64,000 nucleotides of DNA. It comes from Bugulina stolonifera (lineage: Eukaryota; Bryozoa; Gymnolaemata; Cheilostomatida; Bugulidae). Below the pieces are notes generated by a model. The model was not told the origin of the DNA. It did not search any database and saw only the letters and a program-made list of their open reading frames with translations. How positions within the stretch are numbered: position 1 is the stretch's first letter; every line of letters begins with the position of its first letter. The stretch is taken from the NCBI GenBank assembly GCA_935421135.1, contig OW285195.1:10508391-10572390 (forward strand), in the 5' to 3' direction. Positions 14,381-63,800 of the stretch are shown piece by piece. The translations under genes were made by a program, and so were the position numbers.

Positions 14381-14400
14381 CTGTATCTACATGTAGTTAT

Positions 14401-14639
14401 AAAAACTTACCAATTTTACTTCCTGCTAATAATCCCAGGTAAGAAAGCAAGGATCTAAAGAGATCTACATTCTTTCTAATTTGGGGTGGAGACGACACTT
14501 CACCAATGGCAAAGTTTATATGAGGCACAAGAGCAACTGTGGCTGGATGCTCTTCCTAACACCACCAATGACCCTTATAGGAATTGAACCTGGGACTCCC
14601 ACATGGAAGTCCAGAGCCCTTACCACTAGGCCACAACAA
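14401..14639 (-). mobile_element. tRNA-derived SINE, copy 1
   Basis: On the minus strand the head reads TGTGGCCTAGTGGTAAG (A box) and GGTTCAATTCC (B box), followed by a ~160-bp body shared with the copy at 63362-63605. The body contains CTTTGCCATTGGTGAAGTG and ends AAAATTGGTAAGTTTTT. The flanks carry a target duplication CTGTATCTAGTTAT (14640-14653). The other copy (14381-14400) has the same sequence with 6 extra bases, TA becoming TACATGTA. This is a pol III retroposon needing an external LINE. Confidence 0.85.
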
Positions 14640-14653
14640 CTGTATCTAGTTAT

Positions 14654-15538
14654 AAGTTTGGTGTTTAAATAAAAACACATTAATGAGGAATTAGGGTTGT
14701 CCACTGTTTGCCAATGTTAAATGACATGTTTTAAATTTCTGTCTAAAATGTGGTAGGCAGATATACATGTACTATTACACGGGGTGGGTGCCCTACTACA
14801 TGTACATGTACATGTAAGTACCCAACCTACATGTACCTAGTGCTTGGTTAACGTAACTTTGATTGTGATACAATGTACATGTAGAATAGAAGCAAGAACT
14901 TTATGAGTATCACACAGCATTAGATTTTCATATTATCGAACTGTATACACATCAAACATGTAAATGCAATATTATACTATGTATATGCTTCCATGACACC
15001 ATTATTTGTGCATGCGTTGGACATACTTCTCACCCGTTACAATAACATGTGTATTTACTCCGATTTTGCTATAAGATTGCTGTCTATATTGTATACAAAA
15101 CCTATTATGACATTCTCACAAACAAGACAGTCATCTTAGTAAAATCATAAAACAGTAATACAGGTAAAAAGCAGTACAGCAATAATATTTCAGCATAAAA
15201 TGGGGTAGCCAACGCAAATTCATAAGCATTCTCATATGCATACTGATCATAATTTAAAGTTGTCTACTCTCAATATGGCAAACATTGAGAGAGCACAACT
15301 TCACACGAACCATCAAGATAGTTTATGTGTGGTAATCTTCTTAATTTGGAAGTTGTGATAATAGGGAGTGAAAAGATGTTATACGTATGTCTCTCTATTC
15401 AGTACTGGATAAGGCGTAGTCAGCTTTCTCTCCACACAACAGTATAGTATACATGCACATCCAGTACTTACCTGGAGCGCTGCTGAAACAACTTATACTT
15501 ACAGACTTACCTGGACTCACCAGTCAGAAGAGACTAGC
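14654..15538. repeat. Flank repeat, paralogous to 22.0-22.63 kb and 24.82-24.92 kb
   Basis: No gene. 14760-15060 aligns with about 22030-22290. 15255-15340 aligns with 22555-22640 and 24826-24900 (the segment GTTGTCT..CTCAATATG..CACAACTTCACAC). It belongs to the set of duplicated sulfotransferase flanks. Three or more TACATGTA clusters lie at 14765-14885. Confidence 0.6.
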
Positions 15539-15642
15539 TGGTGTCTGCTGTGCAGGTGTCTGCTGTGCAGGTGTCTGCTGTGCAGGTGTCTGCTGTGCAG
15601 GTGTCTGCTGTGCAGGTGTCTGCTGTGCAGGTGTCTGCTGTA
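15539..15642. repeat. 15-bp tandem repeat, GTGTCTGCTGTGCAG
   Basis: About seven near-perfect copies. Both strands stay open because the unit is divisible by three, so the short ORFs here are not genes. Confidence 0.93.
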
Positions 15643-16869
15643 CGAGACCTTGGGTCCATCGGATGTACAACATGCATATACAGCTTCGAATGTACAGCAT
15701 GACGTCTGCTGACATACTGGCATGACCACTTACCTACGTTGTTAACCAGTGAGATATACAGCAAGTGAGGTCTAATAATTCGAGATAGGATGACTTCTGT
15801 GTGGCCAATAGTTACAACGGACAGCTGCCATCTGCCGCAACACTGGTGGCAGTGGTGGGATCCAATAGATCCTAAACCATCACAGATTAAAGAAACTTTG
15901 TGAAGCGAAGATTGGTGTATCTCATTCAGCAGTTCCCGGTGATAACTGAAGTCAATGTCTAGAACCTGGCTGGCGTCTTCCTACGCATCTGAGAGGATGG
16001 ATCACAGGGGTGTGGTTGACTCAACACCTTAGTTGGAAATTGGAAGCTTAGTGCGGTATCCCCCGGGGAGCTACAGTGTAGACTAAGGCAGCATCAGCTG
16101 TGGAAAGGGAGCCAGGTCATAAGTTATTGCACAAACATCAAACATCAGCACAAAGGTGCCTGGTGGTACAATACGACCACTCTCATTCTGTCAACAACAA
16201 GGCGAGGCACCTTTACTACTACAACCAGCTAATTCCTATGTAGAACCCCCACCTTCGGCTAGACTGTCTAGAGACTAAGCGGATACCCTGGTGAAGCTCA
16301 GGAACAAGTCACCTGTTGGTAGGAGACATTGGTGTACCCTAACCTGGCCCTGACTCATGGTGATGGGGACTTACTCCGTGCACCCTCTCACCTGCTTCCT
16401 AAAACACACACAACCTTAACTTTCCAAAGAGACAAGATGTTGTAGATCAGGGAGCAGGCCAAGCAGGAGATAATCATGGTGGAAGAAGCCATCCAAAAAG
16501 TGACCTGATGTAAGCACTGAGCCCAGCGACGAACAGAACTTTGGAACGATTTAAAGGAGGACCTGAAGGAGGAGAGGACTGAACTTCGCTATATTGTATC
16601 CAGAGCTATGGGCTGAGTTTTCAACTGGCACAAACTTGGACCTTTCATGTAGAGTGGAGAGCGCTCAGAAATTTACATGTAGAGTGTACCAACCACAGAT
16701 GGTGAACCCAAGACTGAGCCAGCCACTGAATTAGACAGTTTTCTCAAAATGGGTAGAAAGCAAAAATTAGAAGTTCTCTTCTCTTACACGGGGTACTCCC
16801 TCAGGCTGGTTGGTCTAAGCATTCAATAGACCCCTAAATGGGAATGTGCAGAAAAATATCTAGTGTGGA
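15643..16869. other. Decayed repeat DNA with a retrotransposon primer-site relic
   Basis: No intact ORF. At 15844-15863 the sequence TGGTGGCAGTGGTGGGATCC differs at two positions from the tRNA-Leu primer site of elements 1 and 2. It follows CGCAACA, which resembles an LTR end, so it is probably the 5' end of an old relative. The stretch 16400-16620 contains broken, charged, helix-like frames that may be remains of its coding part. Confidence 0.45.
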
Positions 16870-17175
16870 TCGAAAAAATGGAAGGCAGATTTGAGTAGTT
16901 TATAACAATTTAGTCCTAGGGAAGATGTTTCTGCACATTTTAAGCCATGTACAAGTAGAAGGCCATTTACAGCGCTGTAAATGGCATTCTACTTGTACGT
17001 GACTTAAAATGTGCAGAAATATCTTCCCTAGGACTAAAGTGATTCTAAGGTACCTGGAGGTACATTTTCAGAAAAAATGCTGCGCAGCATTTTTTCTGAA
17101 AATGTACCTCCAGGTACCTTATAATCACTTAACAACTCACCTCAAATGCTCTCACTACACCACATAACTTACCAC
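16870..17175 (+). mobile_element. Foldback (double-palindrome) repeat element, copy 1
   Basis: Two long inverted repeats lie end to end. Arms of ~65 bp meet at AGCGCT (16909-17039), and arms of ~47 bp meet at CTGCGCAG (17037-17130). Flanking parts (GGAAGGCAGATTTGAG on the left, ATGCTCTCACTA on the right) recur in inverted orientation at 18435-18645, so this is a dispersed MITE-like element. Confidence 0.7.
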
Positions 17176-17588
17176 ATGCTACTGTAAGTACATTATACTT
17201 GCTCACATTGCCACATGTCATGTCACGTTGGACTATTATCATGATTCCATATTGCGGTAGATGCCATATTTGGGTGCAGTGTCAAATGATGGGAAATGCA
17301 CTGGTAGACATAGGAGATCACGGTTACACATTGCAGTAGATGCTGTTACTATAGTTGAATAAAGAACTGTTGTGTCCTGAGCCGAAATCGTCTCTCAAAT
17401 GACATGTGTACAAACATTCATTGACATTATTTGCCTCCATTATATTATATTGCATTGTTGTAACTTGTGTTTGCATTACTGTGTGTCCTTTTATTTTACT
17501 AATTGGTGTTTATTGTATTTACATGTACATAATATTATATTCTGCATATTATTTTTACTTGTATTTTTAGTTGTACTGTACTTCATAT
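17176..17588. other. Repeat-rich intergenic
   Basis: No gene. The ~50-bp segment at 17323-17372 (with GAATAAAGAACTG) recurs at 18174-18223 inside the next LTR, so one was probably copied from the other or both come from a further LTR. Confidence 0.45.
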
Positions 17589-18253
17589 TGTGATCGATTG
17601 GCCGACTCGCCCGACACCCAGGCCGACCTATGCAGAGGTCATCAAGAAAGCCTTGTCGCCCAAGCGGATATTCTCCATCTTGAGTGACTCTAAGCATGCC
17701 TTTATGTCTAGATTACTTGTGAAATAAGTATATTATTATCTGATTACATTCTATGTCTTCTTTGCCTATTATAATTGATGGCCAACGTCTTGAATGCTCA
17801 CCATATTAATACATAATTCATTTCTCATCATTTTAAGCACTTTTTGTGCATGGCCGACCCTTTTATGGTCACTTTTCAGCCATTTTGTTATGCAATTTCT
17901 GGGAACGATACCTTATCGAACAGCCCGACCTCCTGTCGGTCTTTTTGCCGGAAATTCAAATCAAATAAAAGCCGGCACATTTTCTATGCCTAGTCAGTGT
18001 TGTTGATTGCGCTTCAATAAAGCAGCATCTCCTAACTCAAGCTACAGAGTCTTACTCGGTGCATAAGCACAAGTTGATCTAGTCAGTACATACAAGTCTA
18101 CACTTCCCTCAGTACCTGTAGTAAGAAGGAACTGATAGACCACCCTCGGTTCCCCCCCATGCATTTGTTTATACATTGCAGTGGATGCTGTTACTATGAT
18201 TGAATAAAGAACTGTCGTGTCACATTTATTGACATGCGCCTCCAAGCATCACA
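17589..18253 (+). mobile_element. Old solo LTR related to elements 1 and 2
   Basis: 665 bp from TGTGATCG to GCATCACA, with the same ends as the young LTRs, flanked by ATAT (17585-17588 and 18254-18257). It keeps the core order CCAT-TTGTT-TGCAA-ttCyGG, then an A/T TATA-like site and TCAATAAAG, matching the LTR promoter and polyA region. It is strongly diverged elsewhere. No internal region follows, so it is a solo LTR. Confidence 0.6.
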
Positions 18254-18434
18254 ATATAAACCTAAATAGTAACCCTCATTTTGTAGCGGTAATCTAATGG
18301 CGCGGAATTTTATTTCTACCAATGCCTTCCATGACAAATGGTGTTGCTCCCAGATATCTCATCTATTGCAATATATGATCATGATAGTACTCCTACCTTA
18401 AGGTATGCAAATGTGGGCAAGTACAAGTACATGT

Positions 18435-18645
18435 ACTTAGTATATGCTGAGTTATGTGGTATAGTGAGAGCATTCTAAGTGAATGATAAATGATTATGTG
18501 GTAGCTAGAGGTACCTTCGAAACAAAATGCTGCTATAAATCGTATTCTATGCGATAAAATATGTAGCGATATTTTCACTAGGATCAAATTATTATAAGCT
18601 TTTCAAATCTGCCTTCTATTTTGTTCTACCGCCACCAGATTTTCC
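18435..18645 (-). mobile_element. Foldback repeat element, copy 2 (inverted)
   Basis: The reverse complement aligns with 16870-17175: GAAGGCAGATTTGA, AATTTGATCCTAG, GGTACCTCTAG, ATGCTCTCACTATACCACATAAC. The large internal palindrome arms are mostly missing or degenerate here. Confidence 0.6.
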
Positions 18646-23840: not shown

Positions 23841-24115
23841 CATTAAACAAGATGGAATGACATTGTTCATCCTCTCCAGGACTTTGGATAGATGATGTAA
23901 ATTATTGTCTTCGCAACCTCTTGGTCGATCGATCGACGCAGAAGAGACTACCGTCGTGGAAGTTTTTGTGATCCGAGAAAATCATCCCTTGCTCATCAGC
24001 ACGCCTTGGTTTCTTGCACGATAATAAGGATTTCACTCTTGCCTCAGGCCGATTTGTTTGTGACCCTGTGATGGGAGTGGGCCTGTGCCTCAAATTTAGG
24101 CTGCGAAGACATTAA

Positions 24116-24359: not shown

Positions 24360-24639
24360 TTAATGTAGTTTTTAGTATTGAAGCTGTCCATTATACTCAT
24401 TCTTTGTGACAGCTTACTGGTTATATCTTAATTATCCCAATGATATAAATAGTTATACAGCTCTTCACCTTGTGGGCTAGGAATTCCTATCATTCATTAA
24501 ACAAGATGTGTAGCGAGTGACCTAAATAGTGATTGTAGACACTTACTTTATATGATAATTATGCGGGTACATGTGCATGTATCACTTTATAATTAAATTG
24601 ACACCCATCTACAGAAGCTGCATGTGTCCCAGTGGTGTA

Positions 24640-24732: not shown

Positions 24733-25057
24733 AGCATGATTACTTCGTCACAGTCATCTTTGTAAATTTACTCAAGGATAATTGCAATTGGTAAGCATGT
24801 TCATACTACTGATAATCATTATAACTTAAAGTTGTCTACCCTCAATATGAGAGCACAACTTCACACAGATAATTAATAATGCTTGTAAGTGGTACATGTA
24901 ATTGTCTTACTTAAATCCATTTGAAGATTATTGTCAGGGGGTGAAAAGGAGTTCCTATTCGATTCATGGCATATGGCATATGGTATCTGTTGTATAGATG
25001 TGGCGTATGCAGCCTACTGTATATTGCATGGTGTTTTGTATTAATTTGTTGTGAAGT

Positions 25058-25160: not shown

Positions 25161-26082
25161 TGAAGGGAGAGAGTGAAACCATGTTTATTATGAGCAGAGT
25201 TTTAGCATTAATTTTGTACATCCATCATTTTCTATTCCGGTAAGGCTACCTAATACAATGTACTAGAACTCACAGTAGGTTGGTGGAAGATGATAGGTTG
25301 ATGCAAATAATTGAGTTCAATAACGAATAACATAGCCTAGCCAGTTGCACGCTTATTTCAATGCCTTCTGCTGTATGTGACGACAGATTTGGTGCCACAA
25401 CATAGCCAAGTTCCAAGAAGAAATATCATTAATGAAGTGGGTGAGGTAGAAAATGAACATGCGTCACAAACCCAGTAGTGGGGAATGCTTAGAGCTTTAG
25501 AGTGCCAACCATAGATGGCAAGACTAAAATTGGTTCATCCATTAAATTAATAATTCAATAGGGTCAATGTCCCAATCACTGGTCTGTCATTATTGTGCCA
25601 AATCGCATCTTGTGCATGCAAAACAACATGCATGCCAATTACGGGCCAGTCGCCAAAAAACTAGCCCACTTTTGCAGCTAGTGGGTTGTTATAATGCGAT
25701 ATCAGAGATCAAATTATTGACTAGTAGAATATGCTACTAGTTGAAGCAACCTATGACTTGTGCTAGCATTCACACAGAATTCCTGTATTACCTTGTGTCG
25801 GATAGGAAAGTTGTTCTTGCAATTGATTACGTATAACGATCATTTTGGGCTTAGAGGAATTCATTCATGGCTGATGCACTCTTGCTAGACATCGTGGAGT
25901 TAGGTGCATAAGTGGAGAAATTTTAGATAACCTTTGTTCTTTGCCTAAGCTGAAGTAGCAGAAGTTGTCTTCTCTATATTTTGTTGGTAAACTGCCCTTA
26001 CGCCAACCACAAACAAGGAACTAAGGCTATCCAAATTTCTTCACTGCTGCACCAAACAGACATCGTGGGTCCTCATTTATCC

Positions 26083-31741: not shown

Positions 31742-32548
31742 TGTGATGGTACAGGACATTTGTATACGACCCCAACTCCCGGACGAAGCTCCACCGCACC
31801 CTAAGTGCCTAGTAGTTGTTACAGCGCTACTCACCTGACACTAACATTCTCACAATTAGTGATCGTATACTTACCTTTAACTGCATTGCATGTTCAAAGT
31901 ACTTAATTACCGTCTATATACATGTCTCCATGTGTTTATGCTCATTCCTTATTCATGTATCTTACTATATGTTGTTGTACATAGTCACATGAATGTTACT
32001 AAGTCCTTTTTATGCCTTTTATACCCATGTACAGAGGCCCGACCTCTCAGAATCCTTTGATATTCATTTTGTACATGAATTGGACCATTATAAGCAACTT
32101 TTGTAGAACCCGACCTATTTTGGGTCGGCCGTCGGGCTTCCGGCGGCCATCTTGTTGCGCAACTTCCGGACGACCACACGTCGTCTTTTCCCGACGTCAC
32201 GTCGGCCGGAAGTCCTTATACTATATAAAGGGCACTGTTTTACTGTTCATTGTCTCAGTCTACACTTGGCTTTCAATAAAGACACATCTATACTTGATAC
32301 AGGGACTTTCTCTTCCTTTTACTAGGTCATTCGCTTTGCGAACCGCCTACTAGGTTGAACTACTCTCTTTCACTGTATAGTCTGAAGGTCGGACTTGAGA
32401 TCAGATGGGTCGTCTTTGGTAGTATTTGGGCTACTGAGACCGCTCGATCTTTCATGTAATGCGAAGTCCTATTACCACTCATAGGCACTTCATTTCTGGG
32501 TCGATAGTCGTCCAAGGACGACCGCACCAAATCACAGAAACCATTACA
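31742..32548 (+). repeat. 5' LTR of element 2
   Basis: 807 bp, TGTGATGG...CCATTACA. The promoter-like core has CCATCTTG (YY1-like, 32147-32154), TTGCGCAA (C/EBP-like palindrome, 32155-32162), ACTTCCGG and CCGGAAGT (ETS-like, 32162-32169 and 32206-32213), GACGTCACGTC (CRE-like, 32193-32203), TATATAAA (32222-32229) and AATAAA (32275-32280). Motif names are by resemblance only. Confidence 0.93.
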
Positions 32549-32549
32549 T

Positions 32550-32569
32550 TGGTGGCAGCGGTGGGATTC
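32550..32569 (+). other. Primer-binding site of element 2 (tRNA-Leu type)
   Basis: TGGTGGCAGCGGTGGGATTC, one base after the 5' LTR. It is identical to element 1 and complementary to the 3' end of tRNA-Leu(AAG) as I recall it. Confidence 0.8.
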
Positions 32570-32937
32570 TAAGGTCGTACTCTTACGATACGAAGCGAAG
32601 GAAGGTGACCTCGGCCTCGGGTGACCGACCGACCTCATTCTTCAATACTTCTACGGCGATTTAGGACTCGGACCCGGGAACCTTGGATACGAGAAGGTGA
32701 CAAACGCTAAAGTGCACCCATAATTCTCGTGGTTCCGCTGGACGTAGCCCGACCTACGCCGGATCTTCAATCAAAGACCGACCTCGGATCCAGAACAGAT
32801 TGACGGTACTCAGTACGACCATCAGGCCGACCCGGCCTAACAAACTACGGTAGTTAACTAACTACCCGACACCCTACAGACATCAAACCGAGGACGACAC
32901 GTCCCCTTCACCAAAGAGGCTCCATCTATACTCAGCA

Positions 32938-33815: not shown

Positions 33816-36605
33816 CTACAAGTTCCTCACACCTCTCACATTTCCATCTCGGAAGACCGTCCCAAGTATCCGGTCGGCAAGGCCGACCCCCCTTCTAAAA
33901 CAGTGACTCAAGTGACGTATGTAAAGCCGCATGTACCTAGCCTGTACATACAAGGACGACTATGTAGCCAAGATGTAACCCTACTCTTGGACACGGGCTG
34001 TACGACCAACCTAATATCACCCCGCATCCTGAAGAAGCTGCAGAGACCCGACCTAGAGGTCCTACCAGTAAGTCAGCCATATGGCAAGATGGCCGACGGC
34101 TCGACTCTCAGGTTCGAGGGAATGGTAAGGCTACCTATGGTAGTCGGTCGTACCTTTAGCCAAGAACTGTTCCTCATCGGCTCCATACCAGAAGATGGCG
34201 TCCTAGGGATGCCCTACCTGACTAAACACAAGTGCTCTGTAAACTGCCATACCGCTAAGGTATACACCAGCCGAGATCAATGGCCGTGTGTCAATAGAAC
34301 GGGAAGCCCTTATACATTGAGGACGATGCCTGAGATGAAGCCTAGTACGCCTCCGCCCGACGTCGATGACTCATGCCGACGTCAAGGACACCCCACCAGA
34401 GGATCCAGGGCCGAGGGAGGAACGGATAATTCAGTACCTAGTACACCTGCGCCCGACGTTGATGATCAATGCCGACGTCAAGGACACCCCCACAGAGGAT
34501 CCAGGGCCGAGGGAGGAACGGGAAGCTCATCACTTAGTACACCTGCGCCCGACGTCGATGATCAATGCCGACGTCAAGGACACCCCCACAGAGGATCCAG
34601 GGCCGAGGGAGGAAAAGGATCATTACCGCCCAGTACAACTCCGCATGGCGTCGAAGTACAATGCCGACGCCCTGGCCACCCGATAGGGGGGCTAGAAGCC
34701 GAGGGAGGAACAGCGAAGAAAAAGAGGCAAGTAGAGGACCAGGGCCGACAGGCTAAAAAGCCGCGCATCCAGGAGCGTAGACAAGGCACAAACCGCCTCG
34801 AGGAAGGTGCTGTCGACTATTTCCAGCACCCGATATTCCCGCCGCCCGACTGGGGCAGAGGTTCAAAAGGTAGACCCTCCTACGTCCGGATGCTAACGCC
34901 CTACACTAGGGAAAACAGACCCCTATCATACAGGAGGAAGGCCCGGTGGAAGCGAGGCCGACCCCCAGAGGTTATACTAGAAAGAATTCATCACAAATGG
35001 GCTGCCCAGACGACTACCTATCGTAGGCCGACACGGCCAGGCCCGTGTTTACTCTCCAATTCCACAGACGGATCCGGTGACCCAGACAACCTTGAGATCA
35101 AAATAGATCTAACAACAGGGGTCAGACAAGTGCACTTCCGCCGCAACGTAGTTCTACTACATGGTGAGAAGCCAGGTGTTGCAGACATAACGTCGCACAC
35201 CACAAGGAGAACCAGGGCAGCCCCCACACCTATAAAAGGCCAGGATCCAGATGGATCCCCCAGTACCTTCACCACCACCACTCAGTCAACACCTAGTCGG
35301 ACAACGGAGCACTCTATTCGAGACTTCTCAACAAGGACGGTGCCCTCCCTAGTCGGCCTACTCATGGACTTGCCAGGTGAGCCAATAGACTTGGACGAGG
35401 TACTGTTGCTTTTGGACGACGACGACTTATATGCTGATCTCGGGAACTCCTCGAGGGATGAGGTCGTGCCAGTCGGGTCGGGTCATACTGAAGTACCTTC
35501 GGTGCTTCGGGACGATGCCGTCCTAACCGACTCGGACGTGCACCGCCTCCCCTCCGGGACGACCTCGGACACGCATATGTACTCCAATGACATTGTACAC
35601 CATGTGACTGAGTCGGGTGACGAAGACGACTCGGCCTACGCAAACATTGATAATCTAAATGATCAACCTCTTGTATCTACACTTTCTCTTATAGAGACCT
35701 CTCCAGAGACGCCTATGCCGCAGTCTCAACTTTGCTGGATCTCTCCACGGACCAGTAGTGATATACGTCGGACAGCCCGATGTAAAGGAAGGAACTCCTA
35801 TTGTCGACTATGTAAGCTAGAAGGGACGGAGAACACCATCAAGGCTCACACACGCCAACACTTTACCCAGTTCTTCTGTTCCTGTGGAGTCAGCGCCCGT
35901 GATGCAGAGACTGTCTATCGGCACCAAAGCCAGACAGGCCACGGAGCCATCCAGTATGAAGTGGATTCCCACATGTTCCAGCTTTTCCTCAAGGCGATGA
36001 AGCTCGACAAGAGGGTCGCTTACCCCTCATGTATCCCAGCAGACGTAGGACCGAAACCTTTCACTATACCAGCTCCTCCAGAAGCTGAAGCCAGAGCAGC
36101 AGTGGTGCGACTGACACCTCCTCCTGCCCCAAAGAAAACAAGTAAAAGAAAGTCGCCCTGGGAGCGACTAGGCAGTCCAAAGCGACCACAGACTCGTATG
36201 GACCCTCCAGCCTTGGACCACCGAAGGACTGATACTTACGACATACCCAAACGTCGGCCCCGGCCGCCTAAGGCTAGAACCGGATCAGACAAGGCCGTCC
36301 CATTGTCGACCAGCCCTCCAGATACTAAAAACACAAAGAAGACTCTTGAATCCCGCACTCCTACAGCAGAATTCCAGAAGGAAAGAGAACGATTGTGTGC
36401 CACTTTAAACAATCGTCTCGGACGCCTCAGGCACCAACTGCACATACTCCAGCAGAGACTTCTTCACTCACATGTTAGAGACCGGCTTACTATAGTCCAG
36501 CAGACGGAAGCCGTACAGGACGAAATATCCCTCCACCAACGGCTCACGGAGCAGATCCTTAGACATACTCGAAGAGATAGTGCCAAGGATCGGGGGGCTA
36601 TGTGA
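33777..36605 (+). CDS. pro: Element 2 ORF2: retropepsin plus zinc fingers, reached by -1 frameshift
   Basis: Open in the -1 frame from 33753. It has no useful ATG (the first candidate, at 33903, is GTG), so expression as a Gag fusion is expected. LLLDTGCTTNLIS (DTG about 30 codons after 33903) and DGVLGMPYL about 70 residues later are the two signature motifs of a retroviral-type aspartic protease. Four ~34-residue repeats follow (core CRRQGHPxRGSRAEGG), then acidic and Ser-rich sequence. Next comes a double finger C-x2-C-x11-H-x3-H, C-x-C-G-x11-H-x5-H (about residues 633-680), then a basic tail and a C-terminal Leu/Gln-rich helix. The stop TGA (36603-36605) is supplied by the 3' LTR. No RT or integrase motifs were found. 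Confidence 0.82.
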   Translation, partial: RLRPETVEAGTRALQVPHTSHISISEDRPKYPVGKADPPSKTVTQVTYVKPHVPSLYIQGRLCSQDVTLLLDTGCTTNLISPRILKKLQRPDLEVLPVSQPYGKMADGSTLRFEGMVRLPMVVGRTFSQELFLIGSIPEDGVLGMPYLTKHKCSVNCHTAKVYTSRDQWPCVNRTGSPYTLRTMPEMKPSTPPPDVDDSCRRQGHPTRGSRAEGGTDNSVPSTPAPDVDDQCRRQGHPHRGSRAEGGTGSSSLSTPAPDVDDQCRRQGHPHRGSRAEGGKGSLPPSTTPHGVEVQCRRPGHPIGGLEAEGGTAKKKRQVEDQGRQAKKPRIQERRQGTNRLEEGAVDYFQHPIFPPPDWGRGSKGRPSYVRMLTPYTRENRPLSYRRKARWKRGRPPEVILERIHHKWAAQTTTYRRPTRPGPCLLSNSTDGSGDPDNLEIKIDLTTGVRQVHFRRNVVLLHGEKPGVADITSHTTRRTRAAPTPIKGQDPDGSPSTFTTTTQSTPSRTTEHSIRDFSTRTVPSLVGLLMDLPGEPIDLDEVLLLLDDDDLYADLGNSSRDEVVPVGSGHTEVPSVLRDDAVLTDSDVHRLPSGTTSDTHMYSNDIVHHVTESGDEDDSAYANIDNLNDQPLVSTLSLIETSPETPMPQSQLCWISPRTSSDIRRTARCKGRNSYCRLCKLEGTENTIKAHTRQHFTQFFCSCGVSARDAETVYRHQSQTGHGAIQYEVDSHMFQLFLKAMKLDKRVAYPSCIPADVGPKPFTIPAPPEAEARAAVVRLTPPPAPKKTSKRKSPWERLGSPKRPQTRMDPPALDHRRTDTYDIPKRRPRPPKARTGSDKAVPLSTSPPDTKNTKKTLESRTPTAEFQKERERLCATLNNRLGRLRHQLHILQQRLLHSHVRDRLTIVQQTEAVQDEISLHQRLTEQILRHTRRDSAKDRGAM
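34345..34702 (+). repeat. Coding ~102-bp tandem repeats in ORF2
   Basis: Four units, the middle ones nearly identical (GATCCAGGGCCGAGGGAGGA core), encode the CRRQGHP repeats. Element 1 has repeats of similar length but unrelated sequence at the matching place after its capsid region. Confidence 0.85.
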
Positions 36606-37407
36606 TGGTACAGGACATTTGTATACGACCCCAACTCCCGGACGAAGCTCCACCGCACCCTAAGTGCCTAGTAGTTGTTACAGCGCTACTCACCTGACAC
36701 TAACATTCTCACAATTAGTGATCGTATACTTACCTTTAACTGCATTGCATGTTCAAAGTACTTAATTACCGTCTATATACATGTCTCCATGTGTTTATGC
36801 TCATTCCTTATTCATGTATCTTACTATATGTTGTTGTACATAGTCACATGAATGTTACTAAGTCCTTTTTATGCCTTTTATACCCATGTACAGAGGCCCG
36901 ACCTCTCAGAATCCTTTGATATTCATTTTGTACATGAATTGGACCATTATAAGCAACTTTTGTAGAACCCGACCTATTTTGGGTCGGCCGTCGGGCTTCC
37001 GGCGGTCATCTTGTTGCGCAACTTCCGGACGACCACACGTCGTCTTTTCCCGACGTCACGTCGGCCGGAAGTCCTTATACTATATAAAGGGCACTGTTTT
37101 ACTGTTCATTGTCTCAGTCTACACTTGGCTTTCAATAAAGACACATCTATACTTGATACAGGGACTTTCTCTTCCTTTTACTAGGTCATTCGCTTTGCGA
37201 ACCGCCTACTAGGTTGAACTACTCTCTTTCACTGTATAGTCTGAAGGTCGGACTTGAGATCAGATGGGTCGTCTTTGGTAGTATTTGGGCTACTGAGACC
37301 GCTCGATCTTTCATGTAATGCGAAGTCCTATTACCACTCATAGGCACTTCATTTCTGGGTCGATAGTCGTCCAAGGACGACCGCACCAAATCACAGAAAC
37401 CATTACA
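36601..37407 (+). repeat. 3' LTR of element 2
   Basis: 807 bp, one difference from the 5' LTR (T at 37006). TATA and AATAAA are as in the 5' copy; transcripts should end after the AATAAA near 37134-37139. Confidence 0.93.
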
Positions 37408-38189
37408 ATACAATGTACTATGTGCAATGTACACTTATCAGAGGGTTTCTATTATATAAGAGTGTTAAATTTCTTGCCACTAAACACATATCTACTATTG
37501 TTATCTATAAAACTGGCATTCACCCATAGTATGAAATCCATACCTGCCAACCTGGAGTGAAAAATTATCGAGAGTCCCAACTTACAAATGCACGGGTGAA
37601 ATGTGCAAGACCTTAACTTCTAACTGCAAAAATTATACTTGAAGAGTTGGAACTGTGGAAGGGGAGGGGGGAGGATATCATAGGTGCCAAGCCTCGCTCA
37701 TTATAAAAGAACAAATTTCCTTTTCCCCATTCCTTGCCATAATTAGAACAAGCTTCATTCCGTCTTTGTTCCCGTAGACACAATTACACGGCAATGGCAT
37801 TTAAGCTGCAAATACACACAATTTACATGTACCAAGCTTGAAAAATACCTATCTGATGCCCTGAAATAAGGAGGATATAGGGACATAGGGAGCTGGTGGG
37901 AGTGAGAGTTTGAAATAGGAAGGGTCCCTCTCAAATAGGGATAGTTGACAGGTATGATGAAATCTACCTGACCTCGACTGCAACATAGCATTCTAATGAA
38001 CATTAATGTGAGGTGCATGTGTGGATCATCATCAACCTCTTCAGCTCACAACTAGGAAGTAGAGATTTTTGTAGTGAAATGAAATGCTAAGTGTTTGTCA
38101 CTCCTCTCTAGTGATAGAGATTGAGGAGGATGTATTCATATTACATGGCCACGTGAGCTGGTCAGAACAGTGTGAGATGAAGGTTGACG
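37408..38189. other. Intergenic, no gene recognised
   Basis: AT-rich with weak short repeats. No feature supported. Confidence 0.4.
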
Positions 38190-40990: not shown

Positions 40991-42367
40991 TCAGCAACCA
41001 GAAACTGTATTGGATAGTGTCAATTGCTCTCCCCACTCAGGTAGCCCGTAATACCTCAAATGTTTATTAGCTTCTTCTACCATAGCAGGAGTTATCTCCA
41101 CATTACTTTGTTTATTTTTGTTTTGAGCTAAAGGTGTTCCCTTCTGGCTATCTTCCTTGAGAGCCTCGTGAATCAATCCAAGACAGTCTTCCGTCGACTC
41201 AAGCCCAGTATGATGGAGCAATGTTTTAAAGAACTTTGTCTGGTCAGATAGCAGGTGCTCATATTTGAAGGCAGGAGTCATAGCACCGCTCTCAGAGGTA
41301 GCCTTTCGGAAATGGAAGCATGTTTCAGCAAATTGGATCACATAGGAGGCAAACTCTGATGATTTCAAGTTGTCTTTATTATTAAATAAGCGATGTGTAT
41401 GTTCGACATGATCACAACTAAACCATAACAAGGAGAGAGGTTTCACTCTTGGTAGAATCTTTGACAGCCAAGGGCTTGATACAATGTGTAAGGAAAGGCG
41501 TTCATGGGGGTCCAAATTAGAAATGGCCCTGCACATTGATATTGTCTGTTCTTTTACATTTCTATAGAGAAATATTGGAGTAAAAGTTGAAAATAATTTG
41601 GGTATGAAGTGAAAAGCCATCTTTGAAGAGTAGACTTGAGGCTTGATTACTATAGTTTTTGCTTCTTTCAATAGTGGCTTCAGCTGCAATCGAACAATGC
41701 TACGATATATAGTCAGGTATTCAACAGAATTCACCCAGTCATACATGTAAGTAGAGCTTTCCATGTAATTCTGTTTGAATGCTTGACTCAAAGAAAACAG
41801 GGAAAGAGGTTCAGAGATTGTAACCACATCTGGTAGAGAGTTGAAAGCCTGCATCACAGCTGTAGAGCCACACCTTCCAGTCGAATCTATCCAGATGACT
41901 TTCGCAGTCGGATCATCGAGGGTATCACCAAGTCTGACGAATGAGCTGATTGGCATCATTAAAAGATATTTAGAGGTTGGTCCTTGAGCGCGAAACAGAA
42001 ATGGCCATTTCTTAACATCTAAAACATCTTCCTCTGGAGAAGGAATGCTAAAAATAGCTTCTTTATCGGTGACAGTCATTAGGGTAATGTGTTTCTGTAG
42101 AGCATATTCTGGATGTACGAACCTGACATGAGTTGATAGAAAGTTACGTCGTTTCTGTACATGAAAGATTCTCCCTTCTGACCAAGACCAGACCTTCAGT
42201 AGCTGAGCAGAAGATTCATAATTCTCTCCTTTCTTACAATTATTTATGTGATTCTGTACTCCATTCAGATTCCAGTAGATGAACTGAACACACCGTAGCA
42301 GGAAGTAGAAGATGAGATGAATGGAGTAGGAGAACAATCTCTTGTAGCTATTCCAACCAGCCATCAT
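40991..42367 (-). CDS. Sulfotransferase-like gene G
   Basis: 458 codons from the ATG at 42367; a second ATG directly follows and matches the conserved paralog start. It has the anchor, IDSTGRCGSTAVMQAF, FLYRNVKEQTISM (YRN instead of YRD) and an EDSQKGTPLAQNK...LSNTVSGC end. It carries two extra residues relative to the family: STYMYDW, where gene F has PTYDW. The cause is a 6-base insertion turning TA into TACATGTA at 41742-41749, in frame. It shares the unusual VQKRRNF N-terminal block with gene H. Frame intact. Confidence 0.87.
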   Translation of the reverse strand: MMAGWNSYKRLFSYSIHLIFYFLLRCVQFIYWNLNGVQNHINNCKKGENYESSAQLLKVWSWSEGRIFHVQKRRNFLSTHVRFVHPEYALQKHITLMTVTDKEAIFSIPSPEEDVLDVKKWPFLFRAQGPTSKYLLMMPISSFVRLGDTLDDPTAKVIWIDSTGRCGSTAVMQAFNSLPDVVTISEPLSLFSLSQAFKQNYMESSTYMYDWVNSVEYLTIYRSIVRLQLKPLLKEAKTIVIKPQVYSSKMAFHFIPKLFSTFTPIFLYRNVKEQTISMCRAISNLDPHERLSLHIVSSPWLSKILPRVKPLSLLWFSCDHVEHTHRLFNNKDNLKSSEFASYVIQFAETCFHFRKATSESGAMTPAFKYEHLLSDQTKFFKTLLHHTGLESTEDCLGLIHEALKEDSQKGTPLAQNKNKQSNVEITPAMVEEANKHLRYYGLPEWGEQLTLSNTVSGC

Positions 42368-50490: not shown

Positions 50491-50647
50491 CATGGGCACT
50501 AATAAGCTATTGATCATACATGTAATTAGAAGTTTTCCTCTCCCAATTTATCTTCCTCTTCTTTTTTCTCCCGGAGAAAAAAGAAGAGGAAGATAGATTG
50601 GGAGAGGACAACTTCTAATTATGATCAATAGCTTATTAGTGCCCATG
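50491..50647. repeat. Long near-perfect palindrome
   Basis: Arms of ~75-80 bp meet at CTCCCGGAG (50568-50576), reading from CATGGGCACTAATAAGC outward to GCTTATTAGTGCCCATG. The left arm has 6 extra bases (TACATGTA at 50517-50524, where the right arm has TA). GTTAA repeats flank both sides. It would extrude a cruciform or form an RNA hairpin. Confidence 0.9.
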
Positions 50648-55300: not shown

Positions 55301-57111
55301 CCAGCCAATGCAGAGGTAGTATTAAACAGGAAGTCGATTCATCTATAAGTGGAGGTGGACTTGATGCTGTTTTCATGCTGATTGGTTAAAATTATAAGCA
55401 ATATTATTTTCTTTTTTGGTGTCAATTTAGTGCAATCTGGATCATGTTTCAGATTTAGCTCTGGTCTGACAAAGATGTTCATTTTCTGACATTGTGAAAT
55501 TATTCATTCCTACACAAGTTACGTACATGTACATGTATAGGTACCTACGAGAGCTGCATGTATGTTTATATAACCTTTGCAGGTCTGGTTACTGATCGTA
55601 GGGACCATGTTCTGGTCAGCCAATGCTTCTGGATTTATCATCTTTATCAATGATTATGTCGCACAGAAAACCAACATGGATACCACTGAAGCAGCTGTTG
55701 GAATAACCATAATGGGTAATAACATCTAGATTTATTTCTAACAACAGTTATGTATTTCCATCACTATCATGGCATGACTTATTGGTTGATTCTCCAATGT
55801 CAGATTTGCAGTTGTGCTCTCCATGATATCTGTTCACTCAATGTGAACAAGACGTAGCTGTGTACTTTCAGGTGTAGCCCACATTGCTGGTAACATAGCA
55901 GTCTTAATGACGGGCACTTTACGGTACCACAGGCTCGCGCTCCATGCACTTTCTATATTGGTGTTTGGAGCCATGACTATCTTGTCAGCATTCACCAACA
56001 GTAAGGTAAGTAAAAATCTTTTACATTTATTTTTAAGCAAGTTTTTTGACCAAACTGGTTCATGCTGAGTCAAATAAGTGCTTGAATACATATTGGTTTG
56101 GTTGCAATAGATTTAAAAGTAAAAGCTACTCCAAATCTTAACAATAAGTGTTGGTTACATGTACACTTTCACTGAATTGGAATTTTTATTTCCCATTTCT
56201 CTGGACCACAACAGCTGCCCCCAGTTCTCTTGCACTTAATTTTAGACAATATCCTAAGCTATGCTATAAAAATACAATTATGCTATGTATGATACGTACT
56301 TATAGGATATTTCAGTAAACAGAACGGTTTTATGCTTCTTTTTACAATGTCATTTTACAGGAAATGTATTACAGTGTGACGGCTTGCTTTGGATTAGCAT
56401 TTGGTGTAACGCTAGCCAATCTACTAGGGGTCATCCATGATTTGTGTGGAGTGAAGTACGTCCATCTTGGATTTGGATTGGAACTATTCTTCGAAGGCGT
56501 TGGTAATCTTGGATTTGTTTCAGTGGCAGGTCAGTAGGCCCTATCTGGTAGATTAGCATCTCATAGGTCAGCATCTCATAGGTCAGCATGTGATGGGTTA
56601 GTGTCTCATAGGTCAGTCAGTATCCCTTAGGGAGCATCTGGTAGGTCAGTATCTCTTAGGCCAGTATGTCATAGGTCAGCATTTGGCAGATTAGTATCTC
56701 GTAGCTCAGTGTCTGGTAGGTCTGTATCTTATAGGTCAGTCAGCACCTGGTAGGCCAGTATCTCATAGGTCAGTATCTTATATGTCTGTATCTCATAGGT
56801 CAGCATCTAGTAGGTCAAAATAATCTACTAGACTTTGTGAAGGTTGAGCCCTCATCTACACATGACAGACTGACTAAAACATGCACCCGACTAACACATG
56901 CACTCGCATTTTGACGACATAGACAGTAATTTAATGTCACATGATTAGATATAATATTTGGTTATTTATTTTAGCTTATCTGTCTGAGGATAAAGGAGAG
57001 AGATATGGGCTAATATTATCTGGATGCTTTGGGATTTTATGTAGTATCATATTCTTACCTGCCATTGTGTACAGAATAACAAAGAAACAAGATTCAGTAG
57101 TCATAAACTGA
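52379..57111 (+). CDS. SLC16/monocarboxylate-transporter-like MFS gene 1 (9 exons)
   Basis: I can join nine exons with GT-AG introns and consistent phase: 52379-52598, 52916-53059, 53610-53882, 54613-54734, 54993-55094, 55583-55715, 55872-56005, 56361-56529, 56975-57111. They total 1434 bases, or 477 residues plus TGA. Exon 1 begins with the family-like signature DKGYAWLVLVMSVLSHFAHAG, the place of D-G-G-Y/W-G-W in SLC16 TM1. Exons 1-3 encode the first membrane bundle, with NKFGSRPTQILGG fitting the TM2-3 loop. Exons 4-5 form a hydrophilic central loop, and exons 6-9 the second bundle. Twelve membrane segments are plausible. It is a plasma-membrane carrier of small organic anions or a related solute; the substrate is unknown. 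AATAAA lies near 57596. Confidence 0.85.
54080..54230. repeat. GTGTG-type satellite in intron 3 of transporter 1
   Basis: Pentanucleotide (GTGTG)n with GTGCT and GTGGC variants. The paralogous intron of transporter 3 has the same array at 62550-62650. Confidence 0.9.
56535..56820. repeat. ~17-bp tandem repeat in intron 8 of transporter 1
   Basis: About 17 diverged units of ATCTCATAGGTCAGC/T-like sequence. Non-coding. Confidence 0.85.
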
Positions 57112-57800
57112 TTTCATATACAGTTCATTTAGAATTAGTTAAACAGGTGCTATCACTTCATTTTTAAAAACTAGAAATACTAAATGGTTAACAACCCTTG
57201 ATAAAGATCACTTTTATAAGCCATTTTGTTATTAATTATAATTGATCGTTTATGGTACGTGTAAGGCTTATGTTGTCTATACAAGCAGTTCATGTAGAAT
57301 GTTCTACTCACTTATAGCGTCTCCATCTGAATCAAGCATCATACATATGTGTAATTATTTATTACACAAAGCAGGGACTCAGAAATTGATTAGGCTAGGA
57401 GTTGTCTATTCTTGCAACTAAAGTTTTAAGGAAGAGACAACTCTAAGATACTCATACCAATATTCATAACAATTATTAGACCAAGGTTGCTATTATTGTA
57501 AATACAAGTCACACAGTTTGCATACATAATATACATCTACATGTACATGCATGCCTTTGTTTATGTATACCTAGTTTGTTCCACAGTGGGCCAGTAATAA
57601 AGCGAACAAATGAACAAATTAATGAAATCAAAAAGACTAGTTCAGCTTCATAGCCTTAGAGTACAAAAGTTTCTTTTGCATTAAAGTTTTATTATATCCA
57701 TTGTCATAAAAACTTGTATGAAAGGCCTGTAGAAATATAGATCTATGTGCTAATCTTTATTTTCTCCTTGAGGGCTGCAATTACCTAACAGTCATAATAT
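57112..57800. other. 3' flank of transporter 1
   Basis: No gene seen. A possible polyA signal (AATAAA) lies at about 57596. Confidence 0.45.
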
Positions 57801-58568
57801 TGCAATGGTCCAGGACATTATTTATTAGTATGGCCTCGGCCTGCCCGATTAACATTAATGCACATTATGTGCCTGTAGTTGTCTCGCTCAACTCATACTT
57901 ATCCATTTCTCTTGTACTTACTGTATATTCATGCATAATACTTACACCTGTTCATATATTTCTATGTTGTGAATTACTTGAACTATGTATAATATATCAC
58001 TAAGTGTAAATACCCCTTTTTATACCCATGTAACTGAGGCCGACATCTCAGAAATTGATGTAATTAATTTTGCACATGTTTTGCATATTTTTAAGCATAT
58101 TTTGTTTGGAGCCAACTCATGTTAGGTCGGCTCTCGACCTTCCGGCAACCATCTTGTTGTGCAACTTCCGGACATGCTATGTTGCCCTTTTACTGGAAAC
58201 TTTTAACTTTAACGGAAGTCTAAAACTATATAAAGCGATGTTTTATATTACTGTTATTGTCTTAGTTGATGCTTGGATCACAATAAAGACACTTCTATAC
58301 TACTTATACAGAGTCTTCTCTCGTAGCTAAGGTTAGTTCCAGCTGATTAAGGTCTTACGACCTTGATGCCCAAACAACCTGCTAGGACTGAAAATACTCT
58401 TTCTCAAATACAGCACATAAGCATTGACTGGCGACCACATGGGTCGTCTTGGTTAACTAAGTAACTGCAAGTTATATAGATTTCCCTTGTAATGCAGAAG
58501 GCCTAGCACCACTCATAGGCTCTTTCCTTTTTGCACTAGTGGGTCATCCCAAGCAGAAAAACATTACA
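57801..58568 (+). mobile_element. Solo LTR, diverged relative of elements 1 and 2
   Basis: 768 bp from TGCAATGGTCCAGGACATT (compare TGTGATGGTACAGGACATT) to AACATTACA, flanked by ATAT on both sides. It keeps CCATCTTGTTG, CAACTTCCGGAC, ACTATATAAAG and ACAATAAAGACAC in the same order. A partial second copy of its last ~50 bp, also followed by ATAT, lies at 58573-58637. Confidence 0.78.
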
Positions 58569-58845
58569 ATATGAAGTTGTCCTTTTTGCACTAGTGGGTC
58601 GTCCCTCTACCTCAATCAGAAAAAATATTACAATATCACTAGTGAATGGGTTATATGAAGCTAGTAAGGTAAATATGGGTCTTCATATATGTATAGTGAA
58701 TACTAGTATAAAACCATCATTTCTGTTCTGTTATTGTAAAAGTATTTATATGTAATCCAGGCGCTCTCGTATAATACATCGTATAATCCATTAAATGAAT
58801 ATAATGTGATGTAGCCAAAAGCATCCTTAAAATCCCTGTAGCTGA
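58569..58845. other. Short intergenic stretch with a duplicated LTR tail
   Basis: Contains the duplicated LTR end to about 58637; the remainder shows nothing. Confidence 0.4.
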
Positions 58846-58852
58846 TTGAACA

Positions 58853-59074
58853 GAACAACTTGCCCAAAGGTATGCCGACTCCCATCACCAACCCAGGATA
58901 CGGGTTATGCATGGCTAGTACTGGTCATGTCCGTTCTGTCACACTTGGCACACGCTGGGTTCAGTTTTGGAGTTGTCAGTAACCTTACAATTGTACACCA
59001 GAAAGTATTTGGTATCAATCTACAGCAAGGCAGTACAATTGGCACAGTTCATGCCGGTGTCCTATACCTTTGTG
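58853..59074 (+). pseudogene. Lone exon-1 copy of the MFS transporter (gene 2)
   Basis: Encodes the family exon 1 (PTQDTGYAWLVLVMSVLSHLAHAG...) and keeps the donor (GTAGGT at 59075). The ATG of genes 1 and 3 is replaced by ACA, and a stop lies just upstream at 58843-58845. No exons 2-9 follow before gene 3. It could be a relic of an incomplete duplication, or an upstream exon spliced to gene 3 exon 2, since the phase is compatible. An AG at 58851-58852 could act as acceptor. Confidence 0.65.
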
Positions 59075-59755
59075 GTAGGTAGATTTTATATACATTGTGA
59101 CATGGGTGCGTGTGTGATAAATATTTGGTGTGTGGGAGTTGAGGATATGTGAGGGTCAACGTAATTGCTTTATCATGTTAATATTCCTCAATAATCCGTA
59201 TTGTACAAGTTCGGCCAATCAATGGGGATGTACTAAAATTAATTGAACCAAGTTATACAGTCATGTAGATGTATGTAATGTGATTTTCAGATTTTCATTG
59301 ATTGCTTATCTTTGTTTTGATATCTCTTTTTCATGATACTTGACTGAATGAGAAGGACGAGGGCTGATAACTTAAAGCTACTCACAAGTACATGTAGTTA
59401 GCATTGGGTAGAAGGGTGCTCAATGACAAAGTATAGTAGTATAAATTTGTAAGCTATTTCATTGCTAGTAATGAAAAATACAATACTACTTGTGGAGACA
59501 GATCAATACAGTTCTAAGAAAGGACAGTGTCAATGTACAATAGTAAGACTACTCAAGCTAGTAATTCTCATGTTACACTTTCTATACATCATTCATTGAA
59601 CAGTGGATGATTGCTGCACTGGTGACAAGGAATTTACATGTAGATCTTAGGCCACTAACACCCTGTACATTAGTAAGTATTTGCTATCTTTGTTTACAAT
59701 TATTGAATAGAACTGCAGTTATACTTGTAAATCCTTAAATTTCTAGATCATTCAC
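59075..59755. other. Intergenic, no gene recognised
   Basis: It does not match intron 1 of genes 1 or 3. From about 59670 it aligns with 50700 onward, marking the left end of the duplicated block. Confidence 0.45.
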
Positions 59756-59759
59756 ACTC

Positions 59760-60030
59760 ATGTGGTACAAGCTGGTACATGGCTGCGGTACATGACTGTG
59801 GTACATGACTGTGGTACATGGCTGCGGTACATGGCTGCGGTACATGACTGTGGTACATGGCTGCGGTACATGACTGCGGTACATGACTGTGGTACATGGC
59901 TGCGGTACATGACTGTGGTACATGGCTGCGGTACATGACTGCGGTACATGACTGTGGTACATGGCTGCGGTACATGACCGTGGCACACGACCTTGGCACA
60001 CGACCGTGGCACACGACCGTGGTATATGTT
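59760..60030. repeat. 13-bp tandem array upstream of transporter 3
   Basis: About 19 copies of TACATGACTGTGG/TACATGGCTGCGG, followed by a few GGCACACGACCGT units. It lies at the paralogous position of the 22-bp array at 50.8-51.5 kb and shares its TACATGACTGTGG core. Confidence 0.92.
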
Positions 60031-60843
60031 GTATGATTCCACCCCTACTACAGTGCTTAGAACAATGTCAGCACAATTTGACCTCAAGAATTCAATCATT
60101 GCGACCTGTATGGTTCTGGTAGTCTGAGATGAAGAACTTGCTACTATACTATAAGTCTGTACAATGTCCCTCAAATACAATGTTGGTGTCGGATACAATT
60201 TCTATGTTTTATTTCTATACAAATATGTGTTAAAATGAATTTTCCAAATCATGTACCACCATGATATTTGTTGAAAGAATTTAGAACTTCACAGATGATA
60301 GTACATGAATATATGAGACACATTATACATGTATATGTGGGTAACCGTAAATTTATTAAAATGTGTTTATGGTGGCAACCGACCTGTTTCATGGCAGTAT
60401 AGATAGGGTAATATTCCTAATCAATCAAAATATGGAGATGTATTTTCACTATAAGAATTTGATGTCAATTTGACTGCATTCTATTCCGCAGGGTGTTCAA
60501 TCAACTGTCTCATGTGACTTTAGGCAACTAGTCCTCTCAACAGTAGCTTAGACTAGCCACTGTACATATTGTAAGTATTACCTTATCTACGTGTGCAGAT
60601 TGTAAGTATTATCCTATCTACATGTACATATTGTAAGTATTACCCTACCTGCATGTCCAGTATGTTGCAGCAGCAATAACTTTCGAGGTTCTATTTTGGT
60701 ACGCAATATATAGTCTGAGATATTGACACTTTTAAAGCTACAAAACTTGTAAGTTGTAACATACATGTACAATCATGTATTAATATAGGGTAAAATATAA
60801 AGTATAGCATTTATTTTGCTTCTAGCGCAAGGTTAGAGTCTAG
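60031..60843 (+). promoter_or_regulatory. Upstream region of transporter 3
   Basis: Paralogous to 51511-52378, with about three 31-bp units near 60560-60660. No certain promoter motif. Confidence 0.45.
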
Positions 60844-63800
60844 ATGAAGGTTAAGGGCACCTGTTTACTACCTGTGCCAACCCAGGACAAGGGATATGCA
60901 TGGCTAGTGCTGGTCATGTCCGTTTTGTCACACTTTGCACATGCTGGGTTCAGTTTTGGAGTTGTCGGTAATCTTACCATTGTACACCAGAAAGTATTTG
61001 GTATCAACCTACAGCAGAGTGGTACAATTGGCACAGTTCATGTTAGTATGGTATATCTTTGTGGTAAGTGTTAAAGTTCACTGGCATGTAAGAAAGATTT
61101 AGTGAATAAGCCTATTGTAAACAAAGTTTTTGACGTCTCAGGCCCAACAATAATATCTTTTATAATATTCCTAATATTTTTACTTTATTTGATATTGTTT
61201 TTACAAATTATGCATACACAGTGAAACTTGCTTAATTCAAACTCCAAGGGGTCACCATAATGGATTTGAATTAGGCCTGAGTTTGATTTGTAAGATCACT
61301 TACCATTTATATGGTGCTGAGCAGGGACAAAAAATAATAGTTTGAACTAACCAAGTATTTGAGTTATTCAAGGCTGAATTAAGCAAGTTTCACCGTATTA
61401 ACTTAGTGGCAAATCTTTTTTACAGGACCTCTAGCCTCCGTGATGATAAACAAGTTTGGAAGTCGGCTGACTCAAATACTTGGAGGAATCGCCATAATTC
61501 TGGGAGTTGGAATGTCTGCATTGTCTACAAAACTGTGGCATGGGGTAGTCCTGGTCAGTCTTATTGCAGGTAGGCCTATATATCAGTAGAGTATGTTATA
61601 CATTAGCAACGGCAACGCCTGTAGGTAGTGAATGTTGAGATACAAACAGACTAATGAAACTCATTAAAGTGCCTACAATATGCTTATTTTAGTAACATAA
61701 CAAACTTTCAAATACCATAATATCATCATGACTTGTGCTCTCCGATCTACGGTTTTTAATTCTTATTTAATTTAGCTATTTCATAAACATAATTTGAGGA
61801 ATGCAGATACTATTTTTGAAATTGGCAATAATTTTACAAGAGTCCTCTTCATTCTCACCCACCCTGCAGTTTTCCTCTAGAGTCACCGTTGTACATGTAG
61901 CCTGAAATACATAGTGACTTCTGATAACTGATATTTTAACATGAAATTTCTGGAATTCATTTTTGTAAGGAAGTTTCATGTCTGTCGACAAGATTTGCAA
62001 TTTAGCCTTAGGTCCATGGTAACACAGTCAGCCAAGAGAAGGATGGATTCGCATATGTTCACATTATTATGATGGTGTTGCAGGTTTTGGAGTATCTTCT
62101 TGTTACTCAGCAAGTTCGCAGGTGCTAGCTCTTTGCTTCAAGAGATTCAAATATATAGCCTTTGCCTCAGCTATGATTGGTTATTCATCTGGAGTTGTGG
62201 GATGGCCAATCATCTCCCAGTATTTACTAGACAAGTATGGATACTCTAAGGCTATGGGAATCATGTCCTCTGTCCACATATTTCATATCATTGCTGGGCT
62301 CACATTTCCTGTGGATGTCAAAGATGTACGCACTGGAACAGAAGAAGAAAAGTCTGGTGAGAAAATATCATCTGCTAACCATTACAAAAGTTGTGCAAGT
62401 AATGTAATAATGTATCATGTACAGGTAGCTTGTATTATGATATAATATAAGGGTTGACCTAATGCACTAACTCAAATAATGTATACATACATCTATGGTG
62501 TATAAAATGTTCAATTATGAGAGAAATACTAGGCAGTTCCAGGTATTTTTGTGTGGTGTGGTGTGGTGTGGTGTGGTGTGGTGTGGTGTGGTGTGGTGTG
62601 GTGTGGTGTGGTGTGGTGTGGTGTGGTGTGATATGGCGTGGTGTTGAGTGGTGTAGTATAATTATAGCAGTATACTATAATTTACATGTAGTACACAGCA
62701 ATATTATTGGCTGCACTGATAGAGTGCCCAATAAAGAAGGAGCTACATGCATATGTATACGAAATGATAATTATTATTAAAAGGAAGGGCTACCTTTTAC
62801 CTACTGATTGGCAACAGGTTTGAGATTACATGTACGTGTACTAGTAACGGAAAATTGTTTTGACTAAAATATTGTCTTCCTTTTAATAAAGATATTTATT
62901 ATTGTAGTATGGCATATTAACTATTTTGTAATATTGTGACCTTCTTTTCTTTCTTACAATTATTGCAAGTACGAACAAGTACAAGTATTGAGAGCATCCT
63001 TTTTTTTCTCTAGCCAATATAGTGCAATTTGCTATAGACAATATAGTGTAAATTTCTATAGACAATATACATGTAGTGTAATTTTCTATAGACAACATAG
63101 TGTAATTTTTTATAGAAAAAGATGGAGTCAGGCCGGACGACAGTAAGGTGATAGGTTCGATTGCCAACACTGCAGAATCAGATCCTAGCCAGGTCACAGG
63201 AAGTGAGAATGGTGCGTTTGACAACTTGGCTTGTGCTGTAAGTATCGTAGGTTGACGACTCCTTGAATTGATGTACAATTCTCCCTTATTGTAATAACAT
63301 TGAAACAACTAAGTATACAACATGTAGGACTACATTTAGAACGGTTATGTAGGCCGGTGTGGGAGCTGCTGTGGCCTAGTGGTAAGTGCTCTGGACTTTC
63401 ATGTGGGAGTCCCAGGTTCGATTCCCATAAGGGTCATTGGTGGTGTTAGGAAGGGCATCCAACCTTACAATGCTCCTGTGCTACTGTCGTAACTTTGCCA
63501 TTGGTGAAGTGCCCTCACCACCCCGAATTAGAAAAAATGCAAATCTCTTTAGATCTTTACTTTCTTACCTGGGATTAATAGCGGGAAGTAAAATTGGTAA
63601 GTTTTTTATGTGGGTGTGCCGAAGCAAATAGTGGAAGAATATTTCAGATGCCTGCGTGTATGTAGGCTCTGTCTAAATGCAAGTTCAATTCCAAAGTTGC
63701 CAAACTACTGTATAATTTATGCACACGTAGTTAATGCTTTGTGAGCTAAGTATACTGTCTATGCTATTAGGATTCTGTATTAGAGGCTGAGGAATCAGTT

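Follow-up and report, generated by a model that had tools for sequence, protein, structure and literature searches.

Why should duplicated sequences within one animal genome differ, repeatedly and precisely, by the same six bases placed at the same dinucleotide? This question is raised by a 64,000-nucleotide stretch of the bryozoan Bugulina stolonifera (C9:10508391-10572390, on contig OW285195.1; the whole stretch is referred to here as the window), in which the palindromic octamer TACATGTA stands in one copy of several repeats where another copy reads TA. We examined the window together with the genome to which it belongs, which comprises 234,951,659 bases in 27 contigs, with contigs C1-C11 (14 to 37 Mb apiece) making up 234.6 Mb together. 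The answer we favor, with a probability of about 0.85, is that Tc1-like cut-and-paste transposons leave TACATGTA behind as a footprint when they are excised, and these scars seem to occur often enough to be one of the main reasons for the octamer's commonness. The original prediction for this stretch proposed a recurrent and precise insertion that turns TA into TACATGTA, and our results agree with it in that the insertion is non-random, and derived wherever its direction can be polarized.

Six sites had been singled out in the window, and direct reading finds the octamer in place at all six; five of the paralogous pairs, including a double step, are clean, and the fourth is weak. The first scar (14388-14395) sits in a target-site duplication, the left one of the pair around a short interspersed nuclear element (SINE)-like sequence at ~14401-14641, which matches two other copies at 87%. 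The left duplication reads CTGTATCTACATGTAGTTATAA at 14381, and the right one, without the insertion, reads CTGTATCTAGTTATAA at 14640, a coordinate that had been given correctly; this pair was compared by direct reading, as its automatic alignment was poor. A second scar is found in a palindrome, whose left arm carries it at 50517-50524 with 20/20 matching flank bases. The left arm is clean against the right, and the insertion is absent from that right arm and from both arms of the related L035 palindrome (3/3). Within a 28-bp repeat, TACATGTA occurs in one of four units (63068-63075), and the three neighboring units are without it. The weak case is a probable scar in a flank unit at 24893-24900, whose left flank aligns well with the copies at 22.6 and 15.3 kb and whose right flank aligns poorly. 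The double step, TACATGTGCATGTA at 24568-24581, faces TA only in its paralogue at 26.57 kb, a difference of 12 bp, and would fit a second insertion and excision cycle at the TA of an existing scar, together with one substitution.

The remaining site falls within a coding sequence. In the sulfotransferase-like gene G, an in-frame scar (41742-41749, minus strand) reads Tyr-Met-Tyr and forms a clean 6-bp gap in the DNA alignment with gene F. Gene G is two residues longer at the scar than 12/12 homologues compared (seven window paralogues and five of ten database matches), with the gap in the protein alignment placed a few residues upstream of the scar. The window holds eight such sulfotransferase-like genes between 8611 and 48194, each a single open reading frame, on both strands and with 67-85% DNA identity between copies; two of the eight were scanned against Pfam. 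For a sulfotransferase-like gene, Bugula neritina supplies 4/10 of the protein relatives, with the best match at 50% identity.

To place these sites in a wider setting, we surveyed insertions and deletions (indels) among repeats and paralogues aligned to each other, which covered ~324 kb of sequence under both filters used. The strict filter, which required identity at 16 or more of the 20 flank bases and removed low-complexity stretches, retained 28 six-base indels. TACATGTA at TA was the biggest class with six (p=2.2e-8 against 6-mer frequency), the runner-up class having three, and the excess of CATGTA at TA that had been anticipated genome-wide is thereby borne out within the ~324 kb compared. 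Because some of the other 22 indels are one event aligned twice, the test is conservative. Under a looser filter there were 32 six-base indels, 13 of them of TA..TA form and eight of these TACATGTA, although two of the eight look like a single event present in both copies of a duplication, and another is inside a tandem repeat. Other six-base events at TA were one TAGGCC and one TACACG, the latter within a 5-bp duplication, and 13 seven-base events included TACAATGTA, TACACTGTA and TAGGCCCTA. A TA duplication, as expected of an excision footprint, is present in 6/6 of the TACATGTA indels under the strict filter. A 2-bp TA repeat would also flank each such indel inherently if an ancestral TACATGTA had been lost through deletion between its two TA dinucleotides. 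Yet among 6-mers bearing a 2-bp repeat this word class accounts for 2.3%, whereas it supplies 6/17 of the indels that carry a duplication of at least 2 bp (p=1.4e-6 under a deletion null).

The direction of change also bears on ancestral loss. Polarity was assigned in multi-copy families, with counts taken among the sequences compared in this analysis of one genome; the SINE duplication and single-partner sites leave it open, and to that extent accommodate loss. The insertion at L029 is absent from 5/5 relatives, that at L033 from all 11 alignments (several being the second arm of one element), and the TAGGCC insertion at L039 from 21/21 relatives, with 23/39 other copies in the L039 family aligning with exactly six fewer bases. 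For TACACG at L022, the exact gap appears in 10/13 alignments and a gap elsewhere in three. Among the alignments compared, none ran ungapped across the L029, L033, L039, 50517 or L022 sites. Judged from these alignments, and from the greater length of gene G than of its 12 compared homologues, the insertion is the derived state where multi-copy families give polarity. The alternative that TACATGTA is ancestral and simply lost, which had been put forward as a possible refutation, fails in these families, where a single carrier stands among non-carriers, and we consider it very improbable.

Which elements could leave such a mark? The genome carries at least 80 DDE_3 matches, and its Tc1-like elements end TA-CAGT...ACTG-TA, with TA-flanked inverted repeats TA-CAGTGCTGTGC and TA-CAGTATCGTGC; the scar letters CA and TG are the termini of these TA-flanked loci. 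Eight loci were inspected, two of which hold long transposase frames (L005 and L007). Both frames carry HTH_Tnp_Tc3_2 and DDE_3 (2/2 scanned), and that of L007 resembles the Sleeping Beauty transposase (E 2.3e-45). Another Tc1-like element, L009:666-2417, differs from L007:667-2417 at both ends by an identical change, TACATGTGCTG against TACAGTGCTG.

We propose that an element would insert at TA, which is duplicated, and that upon its excision in the germline the transposase would leave CA and TG, two bases per transposon end, on the broken host ends. End-joining that keeps both pairs would then yield TA-CA-TG-TA, a net gain of 6 bp. One extra base may at times be retained to give TACA-N-TGTA (+7), and new elements may rather often hit the TA beside an older scar, so that re-targeting, instead of slippage, would produce the stacked (CATGTA)2 of the double steps. 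The original prediction knew of no standard element that inserts CATGTA at TA, a statement overtaken by the fact that the excision footprint of a TA-targeting transposon has such a form. Its suggestion of a TA-targeting repair or polymerase mechanism came closest, with the amendment that the mechanism would be a Tc1-like transposase plus end-joining.

Spacing of the two half-words is in line with occasional retention of an extra base. TACA-N(k)-TGTA stands at 4.4x at k=0 and 2.9x at k=1, falling to at most 1.1x at k=2 and 0.85-1.5x at k=3-6; TAGG-N(k)-CCTA reaches 8.7x at k=0, and some CG dyads (at most four copies) are likewise above expectation. Seven-base insertions are also present in the window. 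At 25254-25262, TACAATGTA stands against TA in one window paralogue (17/20 flank bases, 74% identity), and at 56535-56543 a GG-class insertion has turned TA into TAGGCCCTA, with 19/20 flank bases matching and both the L080 and L083 paralogues (2/2) lacking it. A tandem duplication of ~9 kb at 92% identity runs from window 57394-64000 into L080, crossing the right end of the window, with its second copy in L080/L083.

The process is most likely one that is known in kind, though its +6 form is unusual, as is its scale, with 233,494 copies of the octamer across 235 Mb. Minos, a Tc1-like element, has end letters that differ from CA...TG, and Tc1 itself uses overhangs of two bases. In the excerpts of the cited papers on which these comparisons draw, Minos is stated to leave often a six-bp footprint in Drosophila, which matches the +6 bp scar described here, but a genome-wide scar word is not described in that excerpt (PMC3386967). 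Sleeping Beauty footprints equal its 3' overhangs (PMC7827188), and Tc1/mariner excision leaves 3' overhangs of 2 or 3 bp (PMC3878927); if the CA and TG overhangs are both kept, TACATGTA results. The footprint of Sleeping Beauty and Frog Prince, C(A/T)GTA (PMC3878927), shares with ours the TA target, CAG ends and a related transposase, whereas the Sleeping Beauty scar is +5 and ours +6. The Caenorhabditis elegans Tc1 footprint is similarly a transposon-end remnant at a TA target, but its somatic form is typically +4 (PMC13148408), where we find +6 and both end pairs kept. In grasses, Stowaway/Osmar5 excision leaves 1-4 bp pieces of the terminal inverted repeats (TIRs), with bases of both ends kept between the TA duplications and a later element found at a scar TA; these differ in being plant miniature inverted-repeat transposable elements with other end letters, studied in one intron (PMC1925063). 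Within titles and the openings of abstracts, we found no description of TACATGTA as a genome-wide transposon scar.

How common, then, is the octamer? The window contains 54 copies of TACATGTA, against means of 4.5, 8.2 and 21.5 from Markov chains of order 2, 3 and 4, so that the earlier remark on its abundance holds (54 against 8.2 at order 3). Genome-wide, the 233,494 copies compare with 106,864 of the reversed word, and the palindrome TATGCATA, of the same composition, has 44,889 copies, some of them in a satellite. A microsatellite origin, in which (TACATG)n arises at TA and is extended by slippage, had been offered as an explanation, and the unit can indeed repeat in tandem. Run lengths of (CATGTA)n in the sample are, however, 240 single, 14 double and one triple, which leaves 240/255 runs single-unit where many multi-unit tracts would be expected of a hexamer microsatellite. 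While one of the six TACATGTA indels duplicates an adjoining unit, slippage cannot make CATG at a lone TA, as is seen in the other five, and it predicts neither TACANTGTA nor the flanking context. We therefore hold a microsatellite nucleated from TA to be highly unlikely.

The flanking context is similar to that of Tc1 targets. Extant Tc1 insertions favor TA-Y-A-T, and a target matrix was built on 40 Tc1 half-sites, with scar-flanked sites excluded. Four target-context filters retained 177, 117, 96 and 59 TACATGTA sites, whose flanks outscored ordinary TAs with an area under the curve (AUC) of 0.72, 0.69, 0.69 and 0.66 (p 2.5e-24 to 2e-5). The flanks of TACANTGTA gave AUC 0.65-0.68, and those of TACA-N(2,3)-TGTA 0.56, 0.48, 0.48 and 0.44. 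The TACATGTA sites share the target preference of the resident transposons, with the control word TATTAATA partly alike. In addition, 6/46 Tc1 half-sites adjoin CA(N)TG, as compared with 3.0% of TAs, which is 4.4x expected (p=0.002). Three events over 2.27 kb x substitutions per site give a rough rate, from which 0.17 scars per kb (95% 0.03-0.48) would be expected.

A second word shows a similar pattern. TAGGCCTA, also a TA-flanked palindromic octamer, has 23,808 genome copies against 589 of its reversed word, which holds CpG, and is exemplified by the 6-bp insertion at TA at L039:9854. Its flanks resemble the Tc1 target before filtering; taken by itself, however, TAGGCCTA reached significance with none of the four filters (p 0.06-0.85), and we base no claim on this resemblance. 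As to candidate sources, the TAGG...CCTA inverted repeats at L039 (5075-5334) and L086 (2869-3030) were rejected because their flanks resemble longer target duplications, and GGAGTTAC, taken up from a 10-bp insertion in L037, led to no source element.

Several observations weigh against Tc1-like excision as the origin of TACATGTA. In the one genome studied, no single locus was seen to be filled, empty and scarred in different copies, and exact ends of one TIR number 26 against the 233,494 octamers. The typical somatic footprint of C. elegans Tc1 is +4 in the excerpted source (PMC13148408). The corresponding excess of TACATA/TATGTA is not found here, these words standing at 1.22x and the Sleeping Beauty +5 word at 1.45x; two TA to TACATA indels were found, both within longer duplications (5 and 6 bp). 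Nor is the target context exclusive to scars, given control AUCs of 0.68, 0.65, 0.63 and 0.58 for TATTAATA, 0.62 unfiltered for TATATATA, 0.68 under the strict filter for TAAATTTA and 0.61-0.67, not significant, for TATGCATA. The re-targeting excess may be due in part to the TA-Y-A-T preference, which CAT satisfies, and the predicted 0.17 scars per kb, though imprecise, is compatible with the sample, where the octamer exceeds expectation by 0.41 per kb. The indel at window 57538 duplicates the whole adjoining TACATG, so that slippage is possible (without it the counts are 5/27, p=7e-7, and with duplication 5/16, p=2e-5), and five bases next to the TACACG insertion at L022 are repeated in it. 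Lastly, an order-5 Markov model accounts for 145/271 octamers in the sample, although its 6-mers contain the scar itself. Its prediction of about half the copies would suit a mainly compositional or functional motif, such as a binding site, with the indels incidental; the indel specificity at unrelated loci, including the SINE duplication and repeats, makes this the least credible account of all.

A further difficulty is that a source element for TAGGCCTA, with GG...CC ends, was sought and none accepted, with no acceptable ends among three mariner matches or among 13 pogo/DDE_1 matches, three of which were inspected. Together with the scarcity of exact Tc1 ends today and the fact that there are two palindromic cores at TA, CATG as well as GGCC, this could speak for a new palindromic micro-element, or for a repair or polymerase activity that targets TA and writes these cores without a transposon. 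Such an origin is nevertheless very improbable, as CA and TG are the letters with which the resident TA-flanked transposons end, the junction shows one-base variation and the flanking sequence is similar to the target of these transposons.

If TACATGTA is indeed a Tc1-like footprint, it is tempting to speculate on a broader process, to which we lean only slightly. TA-targeting scars would form both TACATGTA and TAGGCCTA, the latter implying an element yet to be found, and would be present on the order of 100,000 in 235 Mb, a figure extrapolated from the sample, in which the excess is 0.41 per kb. There would be orders of magnitude more of them than of elements still present, and they would seed hexamer repeats and add in-frame dipeptides to proteins. 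Departed transposons would then explain why a short word is so common in the genome of an animal, and scar counts would measure past cut-and-paste activity even after the elements have vanished. Scars would also supply small in-frame gene insertions and hexamer repeats, and the rate of germline excision could be measured from assembled paralogues.

Other repeats are found in the window. Two pairs of probable retrotransposon long terminal repeats (LTRs) lie at 2327-3013 with 6359-7367 and at 31742-32883 with 36601-37436, with weak gag and protease matches between the LTR-like pairs. For the repeat at 6370-7360, the 40 scored among 2,076 genome candidates are at 100% identity, which suggests very recent activity. 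A SINE-like repeat of ~250 bp occurs at 63361-63611, and of the 40 scored among its 2,750 candidates the best are mostly 91-95% identical.

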